Origin: a virus
IMG/VR virus record: IMGVR_UViG_3300044825_001871
Coordinates: 92,236 to 156,235 of that record
Length of the DNA stretch: 64,000 nucleotides
Direction: 5' to 3' (one strand)
Shown: piece by piece, positions 989 through 20,836 of the stretch
How positions within the stretch are numbered: the stretch's first letter is position 1
Layout: every line of letters starts with the position of its first letter
Notes under the pieces: model-generated
What the model was told of the DNA's origin: nothing
What the model saw: only the letters and a program-made list of their open reading frames with translations
Databases searched by the model: none
Made by a program: the position numbers and the translations under genes

Positions 989-995
989 ATAAATA
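988..995 (+). promoter_or_regulatory. T4-type late promoter TATAAATA
   Basis: An exact TATAAATA octamer lies 20 nt before the start of the gene at 1015. A block of about 25 nt including this octamer is repeated before the related gene at 15494. Confidence 0.8.
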
Positions 996-1014: not shown

Positions 1015-2037
1015 ATGGACGCACAAGAACTTCGCAATCTTCAAGAAGCATATATTGAGGTTTACCAGAATCTTGATGAGGAAGGTGCAACTTCTAAAAG
1101 ATTGGCAGATGTTGCTGATGACAGAATTGGAGATTTGCCACGAACACATCATATTCATCATCGTAGAGGAACAGCTTCTTTAAGAACTTTGTCGAATTTG
1201 CATTTTAATGCAAAAGAGAGAGCACAAGGTAGATACCCTGAGAAATCAGGTCTTAGAAGGGGTGCTGGTGGGGCAGGAGTTCCAGATAGACCAGGAGATT
1301 CTGTAACATCTCTACGAGATACTCGTAGAGGTGCAGCACGCAAACTGCTTGACCTAGAGGCAAATAGAAAAAAACCATTAACCCCAAGTGAACGTCCAAT
1401 ACCTATTAGAAGCAGACCAACTCCTCCCACAAGTGGACCAACTAGTAGAACAAAAACTCCATTAACACCAAAAACTAGAGACGAAAGAGCAGCAGCAGCA
1501 GGATTCAAAGGTCAAGGATCTCTTCCAAAAGGTAAAAAACTCTATAGACAAACTGCTCGTGGTGTTACAACTGGAGATGATCCAATGAAAGTATTACAGT
1601 CAGCAGCACAGCAAAAAGAACATTATGACCTCTACGACATCATCCTCTCACACCTTCTTGATGAGGGATATGCAGAAACCGTCGAAGCAGCAGAAGTAAT
1701 GATGGTGAATATGAGTGAAGAGTGGAGAGAGAATATTATGATTGCTGAAGGAATGACTATGAAAGACTTCAAGGCAAATCGTCGGAAAAATAAAAGAAGA
1801 GATGCTTCTGCTGATGCTGTGAAGAGAGGTCACGTAGGTAAGGAATGGTATAACAGTGGTAGAAGATATTCTCCAGATGAAGCAAAGAGAATGCGTTCAA
1901 ACCTGGATGATGAAGAAAGACGTACAAGACATCGTAGTGCTGTAGATCCTGATAATGAGAATGATGATAACTTCTCTGCAGACAAGACGAAGAACCCCAA
2001 GAAACTTCGTAAGCAAAAAGCAATGGGTGAACACTGA
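1015..2037 (+). CDS. Putative capsid-targeted internal (cargo) protein
   Basis: 340 residues, very basic and low in complexity in the middle (Pro, Arg, Thr rich, about 85-190). The N-terminus reads LRNLQE followed by AY, which resembles the capsid-targeting peptides of T4 internal proteins with their L/I-x-E gp21 protease site. Residues about 203-240 carry a helical module DIILSHLLDEGYA...VNMSEEW that recurs in the protein at 15494. The last residues are Lys/Arg rich and end KKLRKQKAMGEH. No enzyme domain is recognised. A late promoter and the CTS-like start suggest a virion protein; packaging is inference. Confidence 0.7.
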   Translation: MDAQELRNLQEAYIEVYQNLDEEGATSKRLADVADDRIGDLPRTHHIHHRRGTASLRTLSNLHFNAKERAQGRYPEKSGLRRGAGGAGVPDRPGDSVTSLRDTRRGAARKLLDLEANRKKPLTPSERPIPIRSRPTPPTSGPTSRTKTPLTPKTRDERAAAAGFKGQGSLPKGKKLYRQTARGVTTGDDPMKVLQSAAQQKEHYDLYDIILSHLLDEGYAETVEAAEVMMVNMSEEWRENIMIAEGMTMKDFKANRRKNKRRDASADAVKRGHVGKEWYNSGRRYSPDEAKRMRSNLDDEERRTRHRSAVDPDNENDDNFSADKTKNPKKLRKQKAMGEH

Positions 2038-15454: not shown

Positions 15455-15462
15455 TTTGTTTT

Positions 15463-15470
15463 TATAAATA
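15463..15470 (+). promoter_or_regulatory. T4-type late promoter TATAAATA
   Basis: An exact octamer 23 nt before the gene at 15494, embedded in the same block of about 25 nt that precedes the gene at 1015. Confidence 0.8.
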
Positions 15471-15493
15471 ACTAAAAAGTATTTGTAAAAAAA

Positions 15494-16213
15494 ATGTCTA
15501 GACTCACTGGAAATGATGCATATGGTCTGATGGAAGCATATTCTGCTGTTTATCAACCAAGACTAGAATTGACTGAGGAAGAAATTTGGGAAGAAGTTGA
15601 AAACTTTGTAAATGAACTCATAGAGGAAGGATATGATCTGAGTGAGTATACTTGGGAAGATATGTATGAAGCATATATCGAAGAGGCAAGAGCAGAAGGT
15701 GTAAAACCTTATAAACCACAGCCATTAAAACCATTACCTCAAGCAAAACCACTTTCTGGACAGAGGGGTGATGGAAGTGGATATAAAGATCGTACTGGAA
15801 AAACAGAAGGGCCTCTTATTACAGTAAATCCAGGAAATCCAGAAGAAGCAAGAAAAGCTTTAGAAAAAACTAAACAAAAACCACATACAAGAACTGGAAA
15901 CCCAACTAGGATTATGAGCCCTAATCTTTCTACCACTAGAGAGGTTGATGCTGTTCGTGGAATGGTTCAAGGTAAAGCGATCAATAATCCAACAGCATCT
16001 AGTTTGCCTAAAGGGTCATCGGCAAAACCAAAACTTTCTAGAGAAATTATAAGAAGACCTCAAGCAGAGGAAGTAGATGTATATGATGTTATTCTTTCTC
16101 ACTTGCTTGATGAAGGATATGCAAGTTCTGTAGATGCTGCAGAAGCAATTATGGTTAATATGAGTGAAGATTGGAGAGATATTATTATTGAAGAAATCCT
16201 TGGTGAAGCATAG
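15494..16213 (+). CDS. Putative capsid-targeted internal protein, ends at an amber codon before a conserved tail
   Basis: 239 residues. The CTS-like N-terminus reads AYGLME then AYSAVYQ, giving an L-x-E/A cleavage site as in T4 internal proteins. The LDEGY-type helical module occurs at the C-terminus (YDVILSHLLDEGYA, about 197-210, then VNMSEDW), with a more divergent copy (NELIEEGYDLSEY) at about 37-49. The middle is basic and Pro/Lys rich. The frame ends at a UAG (16211-16213) although the same frame continues with the conserved tail seen in the protein at 1015. A late promoter precedes it. Virion packaging is inference. Confidence 0.72.
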   Translation: MSRLTGNDAYGLMEAYSAVYQPRLELTEEEIWEEVENFVNELIEEGYDLSEYTWEDMYEAYIEEARAEGVKPYKPQPLKPLPQAKPLSGQRGDGSGYKDRTGKTEGPLITVNPGNPEEARKALEKTKQKPHTRTGNPTRIMSPNLSTTREVDAVRGMVQGKAINNPTASSLPKGSSAKPKLSREIIRRPQAEEVDVYDVILSHLLDEGYASSVDAAEAIMVNMSEDWRDIIIEEILGEA

Positions 16214-16282
16214 GGTCTTGGTGGCGTAACCAAGAATCCTAAGAAACTCCGTAAGCAAAAAGCAATGGGTGAGCACGGTTGA
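16214..16282 (+). other. In-frame continuation after the UAG: conserved KKLRKQKAMGEH tail
   Basis: Directly after the amber stop the same frame encodes 22 codons, GLGGVTKNPKKLRKQKAMGE..., then UGA. The protein at 1015 ends with the same KNPKKLRKQKAMGEH in normal frame, and the DNA is nearly identical over this part. It is either a readthrough extension or a recently truncated tail. Confidence 0.7.
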
Positions 16283-16307
16283 AAATCTAAATTATAAAAT
16301 TTATTGA

Positions 16308-16347
16308 CCCCCTCTTTCTAAATATAAGAAAGAGGGGGGATTTTTTT
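16308..16347 (+). terminator. Strong 12-bp terminator directly before the next start codon
   Basis: Perfect stem CCCCCTCTTTCT / AGAAAGAGGGGG (16308-16319 and 16327-16338) followed by seven T. The ATG of the next gene follows the T-run at once, and the only ribosome-site-like sequence (GAGGGGGGA) lies in the right arm. Confidence 0.9.
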
Positions 16348-17031
16348 ATGTTTGCTCTAAGAGGATTTCAATATGAAAAAAGTATTTTTAACATGTTGAT
16401 GCAAAATAATCTGACGGAACAAAGGTATAGCCCTGCGGCAAGTTCCCACGAATCAGACACTGCATTTAAAATTAAAAATAAAGTTTATAATTTAGAAGTT
16501 AAATTAGACCTAAACGCAGATTTTGGGCAAGGAACTTTAAGATATGATATCGATAATAAAACCTGGGTTACTTATTCTGACAATCGATCTATGAAAAAAA
16601 TATTAGACTTTTTTGAAGTTGCTGATTTTGCGAATGAATCTTGGAAAGGGGTAATTCCATATAGTAACTATAAACACGTTGACATTTATAAAAAAAGACC
16701 TCCTCAAAAAAGATTGTTACCACATGAAGATCTTTCGGATAGGAGAAATTTTACAGATAATTACAAAAAATTAACTGGAAATCCAATAGCAGATTATTAC
16801 AACAGCAAAGACGTGTATTATATTCAAATAGGAAAAAATAAAGGATTTTATTATATGGGGAAAGATATTGCTAATTTAGGAGTTCCCGAATTCAATCCAA
16901 CAGAGCAAAAAATAAGAATAAGAAGAAAAGAAGGTAGGTTTACTACTGCTATTCTTATAAGCACAAATGTCCCAAGCTCTTTATATAACTTAGATTATAA
17001 TGCAATATTTTTGATCAATAAAAATAAATAA
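16348..17031 (+). CDS. Hypothetical protein, possible PD-(D/E)XK nuclease
   Basis: 227 residues. Near residues 30-55 it shows SHESDTAFKIKNKVYNLEVK: an acidic residue, then a strand carrying E-x-K, the arrangement of a PD-(D/E)XK nuclease core. The Lys-rich remainder (KKRPPQKR, RIRRKEGRF) fits DNA binding. This fold guess is weak. The gene is AT-rich and has no ribosome site except one in the terminator stem, so its expression may be limited to transcripts that escape that hairpin. Confidence 0.6.
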   Translation: MFALRGFQYEKSIFNMLMQNNLTEQRYSPAASSHESDTAFKIKNKVYNLEVKLDLNADFGQGTLRYDIDNKTWVTYSDNRSMKKILDFFEVADFANESWKGVIPYSNYKHVDIYKKRPPQKRLLPHEDLSDRRNFTDNYKKLTGNPIADYYNSKDVYYIQIGKNKGFYYMGKDIANLGVPEFNPTEQKIRIRRKEGRFTTAILISTNVPSSLYNLDYNAIFLINKNK

Positions 17032-17051
17032 ATACTTAGAAACACTATAAG

Positions 17052-18338
17052 ATGAAGAAATTTTCCCAATTTATATTAGAAGCAAAAGAAACCAGAGCCT
17101 CCGAGCAAGCAAAAAAGCTTGGTCTGGTTGGTGATGGTCATGGGGATTGGTATAATTCTCAGGGAGAATTTGTTGCTAAAACTGTAGACGGGCAACTCAA
17201 ATTCTTTAATCAAGGACAGAGAGTGGGACAGAGAGATATTCCTCCAAAACCAGGCAAAGGAAGAGGAGCAGCAACAGCACAACAGCAAATTTCTCCTCAA
17301 CAATCTCAGGGACAGCAAATTTCTCCCCAAAGAATACCTATCGGACAAGAAGATCAAATGCCTGCTGATGATGAGTTTTTGACTATTGTTCTTGCCAAAT
17401 TTAATCCACCATCAAAGGAACATAAGAAGTTATTTACTGCAGCAAAAAGAGTTTCTTTAGGTGGAGAAGTAAGGATATATCCCTCACAAATACAAGATAA
17501 TAAAAAAAATCCATTAAGTGTGAATAGAAAGGTATATTATTTGAAAACAATGTTTCCAGAAATTAAAGATGATATCGTAAACAACCCAGAAATTAGAACT
17601 ATATTTGATGTTCTAATTGCCGCAAATGAAGATGGATATTCGAATGTAAATATTGTGGTTGGATCTGATCGCCAAGCTGAAATTCAAAATTTAGCAAATA
17701 AACATAATGGGAAATTTTATCAGTATAATGAAATAAAAGTAATTCCTACTGGAACATTTGATTCTGAGAAAGATGTTTCTGGCATTTCTTCTGGTATGAT
17801 GAGAAAGACTGCTGCTGATAATAATTTTAGAGAATTTAAAAGAGCAGTCCCTAAAACTATTGATGATGTTGATGCTAGAAAATTGTTTAATGAACTTAGA
17901 AAGGCAATGGGATTTAAAGAAAATGTTAAAGAAAATTATAATCTTTGGGAAATCGCTCCAGAATTAGATTTTAAAAATCTGAGGGAAAATTATATTCAGA
18001 ACAAAATTTTTAAAATAGGTGATATTGTTGAAAATATGAATACTGGATTAGTTGGTAAAGTTATGCGTAGGGGCACAAATTATTTAATTTGTGTTACCGA
18101 AAATGATGTTATGTTTAAATCTTGGATAAAAGACCTTGTTGAATATAGTGAAGTTAAAATGGATAAAATGTATAGAGAATCTGGGAAACCAAATACTCTT
18201 GTTGGTACAACTGGATATCTTAAGTATGCAGTTAAACAAACTCCAGGAGCTACTTTAGGAAAAGAAAATCTTCAACCTAAAGGTAAGGCATTTCTAAATT
18301 TCATAAATAAGTATAGAAAAAGTAAAGTAAGTGCTTAA
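17052..18338 (+). CDS. Capsid-targeted protein with nucleotidyltransferase-like domain
   Basis: 428 residues. Residues 1-11, MKKFSQFILEA, closely match the T4 internal-protein targeting peptide (MKTYQEFIAEA) with an I/L-x-E/A protease site. Next come a GDGHGDWYNSQGEFVAK module and a Gln-rich linker (about 73-100). A cytidylyltransferase-like domain covers about 108-285: TIVLAKFNPPSKEHKKLF, NIVVGSDRQAE and ISSGMMRK. The family HxGH motif is reduced to PSKEH. A KOW/SH3-like module (GDIVENMNTGLVGKVMRRG) follows at about 323. Probably an enzyme packaged in the head and injected; substrate unknown. Confidence 0.75.
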   Translation: MKKFSQFILEAKETRASEQAKKLGLVGDGHGDWYNSQGEFVAKTVDGQLKFFNQGQRVGQRDIPPKPGKGRGAATAQQQISPQQSQGQQISPQRIPIGQEDQMPADDEFLTIVLAKFNPPSKEHKKLFTAAKRVSLGGEVRIYPSQIQDNKKNPLSVNRKVYYLKTMFPEIKDDIVNNPEIRTIFDVLIAANEDGYSNVNIVVGSDRQAEIQNLANKHNGKFYQYNEIKVIPTGTFDSEKDVSGISSGMMRKTAADNNFREFKRAVPKTIDDVDARKLFNELRKAMGFKENVKENYNLWEIAPELDFKNLRENYIQNKIFKIGDIVENMNTGLVGKVMRRGTNYLICVTENDVMFKSWIKDLVEYSEVKMDKMYRESGKPNTLVGTTGYLKYAVKQTPGATLGKENLQPKGKAFLNFINKYRKSKVSA

Positions 18339-18343
18339 TTACG

Positions 18344-20836
18344 ATGTCTATTAATCCCCTGAATGATATTTCTAGAGTCTATCTAGAACAGGTTGCAATT
18401 AAGGAAGCAGTCGATCAAGATACTGATGGAGATACTGATTTTGCTGATGTTAGAATTGCTAGGATGATAGCATCTGGTGTTCCTAGAGAAGTTGCAATAC
18501 AAAAAACGAGAAATAAACCATACAATAAAAAAATAAAGTCAGTAAGGGAATCCCTGATTGGCAAACAGTCTGAAATTGATGCGAATAAGAATGGAAAAAT
18601 TGATTCCCAAGACTTTACAATCCTTCGTTCAACTAAAAAGAAAAGGCAAGTAAAAGAAGGTTTCTCAAATTGGAGAGAAGATCTGATTGAAATTGTAGAT
18701 AAAATTCCAAAAAATAAAAGTGAAGATGTAAGAATTACTGATAAGAAAGTTGATAATAAAATTGATATTAATCCAAGACTTGATCTTGGAGAAGCAGTAG
18801 AAAGTCTTGGCGGAACTCTTATTGAGATGATTGAAATTGATGAAGTAGATTATATTGTTGAAAGTGTTTATGAAGAATTGCTTGGGGAAGGATATGAAGA
18901 GGATGATATTGAGGAAGCACTTGAGTATGCTTTAGTTGAAGCAAAAGTAACTTTCGGACACGATACTTCTGAAACAAAAAAGAAAAAGGGAAGAAATCTT
19001 TTAGGTGCTGTTGGAAGACTTGCAAGACAAAAACTGTCTTCTAAATATCGTGGTGCTAAAAAAGCAGTAAGTTCAGCAGCTGTTAGTGGATTAAGAAACG
19101 TTGCTAGAGGAGCATTAGGTGCTGCTCGTAAATTAGAGGGAGACAAAAAACCAAGCCCAGTTCATTCGCGAGCAGGGACAAGATCGCCTTCGGTGCATCG
19201 CGGTGCTGGAGTTGGACAAAGAGAAAGAGTAAGCAGTGGATCTTATTCTGCCCCAAAACCAGAAGCACCAAAACCATCAGCAAAACCAGAACAAAGAAAA
19301 GCATCAACTCCAGTTTCTGATCCTTGGGAGGGATCTTATACATCCCAATCAAAAAAACCATCACCAAAACCTCAGGCAAAGACAACCAAAGTTCCTGCAA
19401 AAACTTCAGAACCGGCACCAGCACAAGGATTGAGTGCTAAACAAAAGGCAGCAGCCATAAGAGCACAACGTAGAAACATAAATATATCACCAGAAGATCT
19501 TCAGAGAGTTATTAGTAACGTAAAAGAAGATTACTGGAGTACTGTTGCTAAAGCATATAAGGAAAAATATGAATTACTTGAAAAAGCGGAAAGTGAGCAA
19601 CAACAAAAACTTTTCGGTCTTGCTCTTTCTGTAAAAAGAGGACAAACTTCAAGAGATAAGGTAAGTGATAGAGTTCTTGAAATTGTTGATAGTATGAGTG
19701 AGAAAAAAATTCGTGACTTTGCTAAAACTCCCCATAAAGGACTTCCTCATAAAATTGAAACAAAGGAAGAAGCAATAAGACAGGAATTTATTGCCCGAAT
19801 GGTGAGTAAAATTGAAGAGCAAAGTGGAGTTTATGTTGATGAAGAAAAACTTCAAAGTTCAATGAAGAAAGGTAAAAAAAAACTAGAAAGCAATACCCAA
19901 GTTTTTCACGATGTAGATGATAATCTTGTAGATCAGAGACATCCTGATGCTGCAAAAATTGATGTGATGAGAAAAACTGGCGGTGAGTGGAAAAGAGTAC
20001 AATCATTAACACCTAGTCAGTTTGCTCATCATAGACTAAGAAAACCTGGAGAACCTGTAAAGAAAGAAAATGATCCCGGTGATAAGTATGGGTTTAACCA
20101 GTTTAGAGACACTGAAAAATTCAAAAAAACAACAAAACCAAATAAACCAGTAGTTAGATTGGGAGATAGTTCAAGAAGACCAGCACAAAAAGAAGTTGTG
20201 ACTGCTCGTGGCGGATCTAAATTTGGAAGTAAAAAACCAAGCACCCCTATGGATAACCCTGGGGAATTTGCTAAAGATTTGAAAACTAGAATTGGTGTAA
20301 AAAATCTTGAAAGAAAGAACGTCCATTTTACTGGCGGAATGCGTAAGGGATCTGGACCTGAGAAAAAGGCTGAGGTTGTTAAAAAAATTGTGAAACCTGA
20401 TGTTAAGAAAGTCATTGCAACTGATGATCACTTACAGAATGTAAGACATATGGCAGCAGCGGCATCTGAGGTAGCACCTAAGGCAAAAGTTAGAGCATAT
20501 CAATCAAAACCTGCTACAAAAGCAAAAGGTAAAGTGAGGTCTGGTGATATTGTTCCGGTAAGAGTTGGTAAGGAAAGTGATTTGAATGATCCTAAAATTG
20601 GAATTAGAAAAAATACTTCTCCTTCAGGGTCACCAAAAGAAACACAAAGAAGAAGAAAGCAACAAAAGATGGGTGAAGCAGTTGATCTAAATCAACCCCA
20701 AGAGAAACCCCAAAATCCATCTGCGGTCAATCAAGTTTTACAAGCAAAAATAAAAGCAGATTCTGCAAAAAAAGAATTTGCCACCAAACAAAGAATGGCG
20801 GCACAAAAGGGCGTTGATTTATCTTCAATTTCCTAA
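18344..20836 (+). CDS. Large internal/structural protein with EF-hand-like loops and HAD phosphatase-like domain
   Basis: 830 residues, only 5 nt after the preceding gene. The N-terminus has an IKE/AV site that could be a capsid-targeting cleavage point. Two Ca-binding-type loops occur: DQDTDGDTDF (about 25-34) and DANKNGKIDSQDF (about 79-91). An LDEGY-like helical module (YEELLGEGYEEDD) is near 176. A long Pro/Lys/Ser-rich linker covers about 260-380. A HAD-like domain lies at about 520-700 with FHDVDDNLV (motif I), VHFTGG (motif II), a following Lys, and IATDDHLQNV (motif III). The C-terminus has RRRKQQKMGEA, like the tail of the related proteins. Likely a virion cargo protein. Confidence 0.72.
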   Translation: MSINPLNDISRVYLEQVAIKEAVDQDTDGDTDFADVRIARMIASGVPREVAIQKTRNKPYNKKIKSVRESLIGKQSEIDANKNGKIDSQDFTILRSTKKKRQVKEGFSNWREDLIEIVDKIPKNKSEDVRITDKKVDNKIDINPRLDLGEAVESLGGTLIEMIEIDEVDYIVESVYEELLGEGYEEDDIEEALEYALVEAKVTFGHDTSETKKKKGRNLLGAVGRLARQKLSSKYRGAKKAVSSAAVSGLRNVARGALGAARKLEGDKKPSPVHSRAGTRSPSVHRGAGVGQRERVSSGSYSAPKPEAPKPSAKPEQRKASTPVSDPWEGSYTSQSKKPSPKPQAKTTKVPAKTSEPAPAQGLSAKQKAAAIRAQRRNINISPEDLQRVISNVKEDYWSTVAKAYKEKYELLEKAESEQQQKLFGLALSVKRGQTSRDKVSDRVLEIVDSMSEKKIRDFAKTPHKGLPHKIETKEEAIRQEFIARMVSKIEEQSGVYVDEEKLQSSMKKGKKKLESNTQVFHDVDDNLVDQRHPDAAKIDVMRKTGGEWKRVQSLTPSQFAHHRLRKPGEPVKKENDPGDKYGFNQFRDTEKFKKTTKPNKPVVRLGDSSRRPAQKEVVTARGGSKFGSKKPSTPMDNPGEFAKDLKTRIGVKNLERKNVHFTGGMRKGSGPEKKAEVVKKIVKPDVKKVIATDDHLQNVRHMAAAASEVAPKAKVRAYQSKPATKAKGKVRSGDIVPVRVGKESDLNDPKIGIRKNTSPSGSPKETQRRRKQQKMGEAVDLNQPQEKPQNPSAVNQVLQAKIKADSAKKEFATKQRMAAQKGVDLSSIS

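Follow-up and report, generated by a model that had tools for sequence, protein, structure and literature searches.

The window analysed here, a stretch of 64,000 bases, comprises bases 92236–156235 of a 156,235-base viral record (IMGVR_UViG_3300044825_001871) from a T4-like cyanophage, the closest isolates of which show approximately 75–79% DNA identity over parts of the region only. Its gene at position 17052 specifies a nucleotidyltransferase-like protein with an N-terminus resembling the capsid-targeting sequence (CTS) of the coliphage T4 internal proteins, and this protein, together with the distribution of the tag, is the subject of this report. The locus sits between mazG and the gp61 primase. 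The corresponding block of Synechococcus phage S-SCSM1 contains five protein genes in a row (gp089, gp282, gp281, gp280 and gp279) that are annotated as virion proteins by mass spectrometry; gp281 is an NMNAT. The original prediction for this DNA had named four open reading frames (ORFs), and all four were found as described with their N-termini, namely MKKFSQFILEA (17052), MSRLTGNDAYGLME/AY (15494), ...VAIKE/AV (18344) and MDAQELRNLQE/AY (1015), where the slash marks the proposed cut. The features of the first of these, with residues numbered from the initial methionine, are as follows.

17052..18338, + strand: CTS-tagged nucleotidyltransferase of 428 amino acids (aa), cytidyltransferase/NMNAT-like (phrog_395, fold match, orthologue of S-SCSM1 gp281)
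17052..17084, + strand: capsid-targeting sequence MKKFSQFILE/A, with the predicted gp21 cut after E10, between 17081 and 17082
17097..17234, + strand: small "GHG" module, approximately residues 16–61, right after the CTS (N-terminal phrog_3561 match)
17367..17921, + strand: nucleotidyltransferase domain, residues 106–290, with FNPPSKEH and ISSGMMR (invariant residues, model, fold search)
17973..18146, + strand: small beta-rich C-terminal domain, residues 308–365 (phrog_4808, phrog_22379, strands in the model)

The capsid-targeting sequence

The T4 genes ipII and ipIII both start with MKTYQEFIAEA (read from NC_000866). In T4 IPIII the first 10 residues are enough for incorporation, mutagenesis having assigned targeting mainly to residues 4 and 7 and processing to residues 8 and 10, and CTS fusions are packaged and then delivered to the host (PMC9026906). 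The 17052 protein has an aromatic residue at position 4, F7, isoleucine at position 8 and E10. For comparison we assembled 51 distinct orthologues, taken from named phages or retrieved with peptides that did not include the tag. M1, K2, F4, F7 and E10 are present in 100% of them, residue 8 is always I or L, and A11 occurs in 50 of the 51, while positions 3, 5, 6 and 9 are variable. The conserved positions are those defined experimentally in T4 as the targeting and cleavage positions. The proposed closeness to the T4 targeting peptide is borne out, the match being far above chance and the N-terminus conserved among the relatives compared. Judged by its sequence, the 17052 protein opens with a genuine T4-type CTS.

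Prohead protease, further tags and promoter-like boxes

The record also carries the protease gp21 (Peptidase_S77, 1.0e-35; record 80997–81647), surrounded by the portal, gp22 and gp23. A candidate site in this gp23, NLME/SP at residue 59, may be compared with SFLTE/AE in T4 gp23. Two other clear tags were found in the genome. MKTFKEFLEEA opens a 148-aa protein (record 17106–17552) for which tblastn found no counterpart in annotated phages, and MKSFKQFISES opens a 106-aa protein (phrog_1742; record 78736–79056) encoded between the portal and gp21.

Late-promoter-like boxes lie upstream of three of the four ORFs, at distances of 17–23 nucleotides.

17024..17034, + strand: two overlapping ATAAATA late-promoter-like boxes, 17–21 nucleotides upstream of 17052
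15464..15470, + strand: ATAAATA late-promoter-like box upstream of 15494
989..995, + strand: ATAAATA late-promoter-like box upstream of 1015

The leader TTTATAAATAACTAAAAAGTATT is identical for 1015 and 15494 (989–1040 and 15455–15500). In all, 11 window genes have an ATAAATA box at most 45 nucleotides upstream. The motif is not commoner than chance across the whole window, and only the position of the three sets of boxes is suggestive.

The nucleotidyltransferase domain

The nucleotidyltransferase-like domain predicted in the 17052 protein was confirmed by a profile match to the PHROG cytidyltransferase family (phrog_395, 2e-86) and by its fold. The predicted model is Rossmann-like, most of residues 110–290 being modelled with confidence; Foldseek ranks NaMN/NMN adenylyltransferases first (E 2.8e-5) and phosphopantetheine adenylyltransferases only slightly lower. 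F117, N118, P119, P120, H124, R207 and R251 are invariant in the family. The family consensus GRFNPPTxGH is represented in the window protein by FNPPSKEH (G to E), followed by ISSGMMR; with H124 and R251 invariant, we count these as the (T/H)xGH and ISSxxxR motifs. Pfam gave a weak, irrelevant match only, and a profile search of solved structures by sequence returned no match for the 17052 and 18344 families. The model points to an NMN-adenylyltransferase fold, and the enzyme may act on NMN or on another substrate. A role in an NAD-recycling pathway was considered and is unsupported, since no member of the NAPRTase/NAMPT family, and hence no nicotinamide phosphoribosyltransferase, was found in the genome record.

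Occurrence in virions

Homologues of the 17052 protein are present in four published virion proteomes, those of S-SM1, S-SCSM1, S-SZBM1 and S-CREM2. The S-SM1 virion contains a cytidylyltransferase (PMC3037559), and S-SCSM1 gp281, found in the virion by mass spectrometry, shows 45% identity to the window protein. The F-x-x-F-[IL]-x-E core is carried by the virion-reported NMNAT of S-SCSM1 (MKSFLQFLKEA), the cytidylyltransferase of S-SZBM1 (MRFRQFIIEA) and the kinase of S-CRM01 (MISFDQFLSEK).

The published table for S-CREM2 lists 52 of 219 proteins as detected in virions (PMC10665884). Five of the 219 match the pattern M-x(1-3)-[FYL]-x-x-F-[LIMVF]-x-E, and all five are in the virion, as against none of the 167 undetected proteins (Fisher test, 6.5e-4; 4.4e-5 when non-structural virion proteins are compared with the undetected ones). 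The tagged set includes a SAM lyase (S-AdoMet_lyase, 2.3e-19), a kinase and a cytidylyltransferase. Beyond these five, a virion protein annotated as Cas9 has the core of the tag at residues 19–26, followed by the GHG module as in 17052; this module adjoins the CTS of the kinase as well. The Cas9/Csn1 annotation of S-CREM2 gp12 (L079:7704-10313:-) looks doubtful; Pfam gave nothing for the protein at E up to 0.05.

We propose that the 17052 protein is head cargo. During assembly F4 and F7 would attach it to the scaffold core, and gp21, which resides there, would cleave behind E10, so that the mature protein, beginning with A11, is left within the DNA-filled head. Probably it would then be ejected with the genome, so that an NMN-adenylyltransferase-like enzyme is delivered at the start of infection. 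We put the probability of this reading at roughly 0.8.

Several points weigh against it. Virion detection concerns orthologues in other phages and not the phage of 17052 itself, and cleavage of the cyanophage tag is predicted from the sequence of the site. The homologues in P-HM1 and S-PM2 lack the tag, which is degenerate in the S-N03 kinase. S-SCSM1 gp030, the orthologue of the 106-aa tagged protein described above, is tagged, yet does not bear the virion-detected label. The pattern used for S-CREM2 was widened, for instance to admit L at position 4 and F at position 8, once its N-termini had been seen; a stricter one (F/Y at 4; I/L/M at 8) leaves three matches, all three in the virion. Among partial contigs, gp21 was found on 5 of 13 bearing the tag versus 1 of 9 controls, a comparison that is underpowered.

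The authors of the proteome papers themselves say that co-purification is possible. On this reading abundant infection proteins would merely accompany the virions, and the common N-terminus would have another role. We regard this as very improbable, because the proteins detected are those with a tag that agrees with the experimentally defined targeting and cleavage residues of T4, and because such detection recurs in several independent cyanophage proteomes.

Distribution of the tag

The tag M-K-x-F-x-x-F-h-x-E-A, translated back into a degenerate DNA pattern, was searched for in viral contigs, which yielded at least 119 stretches; a frame was counted if it had at least 50 codons or ran to the contig end. 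Among the matches listed, 122 of 123 open an ORF at the ATG of the tag and none lies inside a longer frame. A register-permuted pattern with an equal number of specified bases, run over the whole viral collection, gave 29 matches, with 12 opening such a frame, and several of these 12 resemble tags one residue shorter. A second permuted pattern, MKxxFxFhxEA, was rejected as a clean control since it also catches real tags with F4; with residue 4 left unspecified in this way, F occupies position 4 in 109 of 116 gene starts.

The 117 tagged proteins of at least 50 residues among the listed matches can be grouped into 35 clusters, between which BLAST finds no similarity past residue 12. Their recognizable cargo, again among the matches listed, comprises cytidyltransferases, DUF6267, a GNAT acetyltransferase, a DPBB lytic domain, DUF192, a polynucleotide-kinase-phosphatase-like HAD protein and, weakly, an M78-like metallopeptidase. 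In our reading the tag is modular: in related phages it stands on many unrelated proteins, including the SAM lyase, kinase, HAD phosphatase, acetyltransferase, DUF6267 and others, and by this it shows which proteins T4-like phages carry. It is likely, in our view, that the T4 targeting code serves as a general modular address across environmental T4-like phages, loading many unrelated proteins into the head, with anti-defence and takeover enzymes likely among them (SAM lyase, kinase, NMNAT-like, HAD, acetyltransferase, DUF6267).

Two further tagged proteins (L116:3736-4152:+ and L148:1208-1858:-) look ADP-ribosyltransferase-like by eye (YHGT..., HYTS...), and neither has a Pfam match. DUF6267, which by eye resembles KxDG nucleotidyltransferases, adjoins or is fused to the cytidyltransferase in several phages (L101, L248, L080) and bears its own tag in the first of these; perhaps the two act together. 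A DUF6267 search of the genome under study gave no match, and its positive control was also silent, so that the result is uninformative.

Alternatively, the tag might anchor proteins to the scaffold core for assembly only; they would then be structural or scaffold-associated and inactive in the new host, the enzyme domain being a moonlighting or relic fold. This would suit DSL-LC03, in which a 90-aa gene annotated as a cytidyltransferase (L082 7908-8180) still has the tag (MKSFLEFISEA) and C-terminal domain but has lost the enzyme domain; the 15494 and 18344 proteins are, moreover, low-complexity and scaffold-like, and injection of the 17052 protein is itself an inference. Nevertheless, the catalytic motifs of the nucleotidyltransferase are invariant, the cargo across phages consists of many different enzymes, as expected of delivered effectors, and CTS fusions in T4 do reach the host. 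We consider an assembly-only role unlikely and prefer delivery of the enzyme.

The proteins at 15494, 18344 and 1015

The remaining three ORFs named in the original prediction have the following features.

15494..16213, + strand: 239-aa protein with conserved N-terminus MSRLTGNDAYGLME/AYSAVY and a possible gp21 site after E14 (orthologue N-termini)
18344..20836, + strand: large low-complexity protein of 830 aa with conserved N-terminus and HAD-like domain (gp280 homologue in the virion, DUF3008)
18344..18409, + strand: conserved N-terminus MSINPLNDISRVYLEQVAIKE/A, with a possible gp21 site after E21 (NDIS[KR]VYL kept in the family)
19586..19753, + strand: DUF3008 domain, residues 415–470 (Pfam, 1.7e-12)
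19889..20578, + strand: HAD-like domain, approximately residues 516–745, with polynucleotide-kinase-phosphatase-like motifs (invariant in 14 sequences)
1015..2037, + strand: 340-aa protein with N-terminus NLQE/AYIEVY and a C-terminal segment in common with 15494 (sequence)

All three have an L/I-x-E/A site and lack the F/Y4-x-x-F7-[IL]-x-E10 arrangement. Without the F-x-x-F core, 15494 and 18344 are not T4-type CTS proteins. The [LIVM]-x-E sites suggested for them are conserved within their families: the 15494 site is kept in 10 of 11 orthologue N-termini versus a background of 0.15 in the same proteins, and that of 18344 ([LIVM]xE[AGSTKE]) in 14 of 16 versus 0.39. As a general marker of head proteins, however, the bare L-x-E/A site was rejected. 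When [LIM]-x-E-[AGS] was sought in the first 25 residues, no significant enrichment in virion proteins was obtained, either in S-CREM2 (4 of 52 virion proteins versus 8 of 167 others, p=0.31) or in S-SCSM1 (5 of 47 versus 10 of 235, p=0.08). Since bare sites do not separate virion proteins, their conservation in the 15494 and 18344 families is suggestive only.

These strings may thus be chance occurrences in E-rich helical N-termini, none of the three proteins being a gp21 substrate. Besides the lack of enrichment, one 15494 orthologue (L026) has K in place of E, and S-SCSM1 gp280 is without the site. Set against this, the sites stand well above the background of their own proteins, despite insertions and deletions in the 18344 family, and the S-SCSM1 homologues were found in the virion. 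We rate the chance explanation as a serious contender, somewhat short of even odds. Probably 15494 and 18344 are also internal or core head proteins with conserved N-termini of their own; since these are not T4-type, the way in which the two proteins would enter the head can be called no more than plausible.

The N-terminus of 15494 resembles that of S-SCSM1 gp089 in L-x-E-AYxxVY, gp089 (LSE/AYAAVY) being a virion protein. The C-terminal part of 1015 matches residues 185–230 of the same protein with 48% identity, and the C-termini of 1015 and 15494 are similar to each other (LSHLLDEGYA...NMSE.WR). No orthologue reaching the N-terminus of 1015 was found; most of its matches in relatives' loci stop short of it, so the C-terminal segment may be a recurring domain. 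Pfam returned nothing for 15494 and 1015, even at E up to 1.

The 18344 protein matches S-SCSM1 gp280, detected in the virion, and its DUF3008 stretch matches gp279, a stand-alone virion protein of 69 aa. A HAD domain is likely in 18344. D-x-D, T-A-R, K and DD, the HAD motifs, are invariant in 14 sequences, while Pfam gave no HAD match and the profile and fold scores of the region are weak (phrog_415, E 0.011; best Foldseek E 0.05). A clearer relative of the domain (L139; phrog_415, 1.7e-7) is itself CTS-tagged, and in S-SCSM1 gp280 there is no sign of HAD motifs by eye. The EF-hand-type loops once proposed for 18344 were not upheld, dockerin (E 0.052) and EF-hand (E 0.21) both falling below the cut-off.

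Between 15494 and 17052 lies a gene for a 227-aa protein (16348–17031; phrog_26930), in which a stretch, ESD...LEVKL, recalls PD-(D/E)XK nucleases by eye; nothing was found for it in Pfam, even at E up to 1. Directly ahead of its ATG, at 16305–16347, is a strong hairpin followed by a terminator-like T run.

In sum, the observations of the original prediction are partly confirmed and its interpretation, that enzymes are loaded into the head and injected, partly supported: strongly for 17052, on the strength of its tag, the presence of gp21 and the four proteomes, whereas 15494 and 18344 lack a T4-type tag.

Comparison with known systems

Cyanomyoviruses reportedly have no T4 alt, gp67 or gp68 (PMC2984593). 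NMNAT-like enzymes in cyanophage virions are already published, with the caveat about co-purification, and the CTS itself is known from T4. What we add is that the tag is identified, that it agrees with T4 mutagenesis, that it is found on many unrelated proteins and that it coincides with detection in virions. In the literature searched, which left aside preprints and most subscription papers, the tag was not found as an explanation of virion enzymes, and "capsid targeting" and "cyanophage" occurred together only in a T4 review; an earlier report elsewhere is therefore possible. A conserved tag would explain how enzymes enter cyanophage heads. It also gives a set of candidates, open to experimental test, for proteins delivered by cyanophages as infection begins, and offers a means of predicting delivered effectors from metagenomic sequence; if the proposal is true, the set of proteins that a phage carries and injects could be read from N-termini alone.

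The virion NMNAT/cytidylyltransferase-like proteins (T4-GC190; S-SM1, S-SCSM1, S-SZBM1 and S-CREM2) reported by mass spectrometry belong to the same family as 17052. Those reports leave the packaging route, or packaging itself, undecided, whereas a targeting sequence is identified here. The motifs D-x-D, T-A-R, K and DD of 18344 are also those of the 3'-phosphatase (HAD) of T4 polynucleotide kinase, to which 18344 shows a weak profile and fold likeness and L139 a clearer similarity. Unlike that enzyme, 18344 is a long low-complexity protein of head type in which no kinase domain was seen, and there is no significant direct match between the two. The ejection proteins of SPN3US and other phiKZ-like phages resemble the 17052 proposal in that they are virion proteins from which a prohead protease cuts an N-terminal propeptide, but those propeptides are mostly over 100 residues, far longer than the T4 CTS.

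The closest parallel is with IPII and IPIII (and Alt) of T4, which have a 10-residue N-terminal tag with functional residues at 4, 7, 8 and 10, as in 17052. Position 4 is Y in IPII and IPIII and F only in the 17052 family. The T4 internal proteins are small, 95–193 aa (T4 record), compared with the 428-aa nucleotidyltransferase carried here. Another of them, IPI, is an anti-restriction inhibitor. In T4, diverse cargo has the tag alone in common and gp21 is in the genome; the same holds for the tagged cargo described here and for the genome of 17052.

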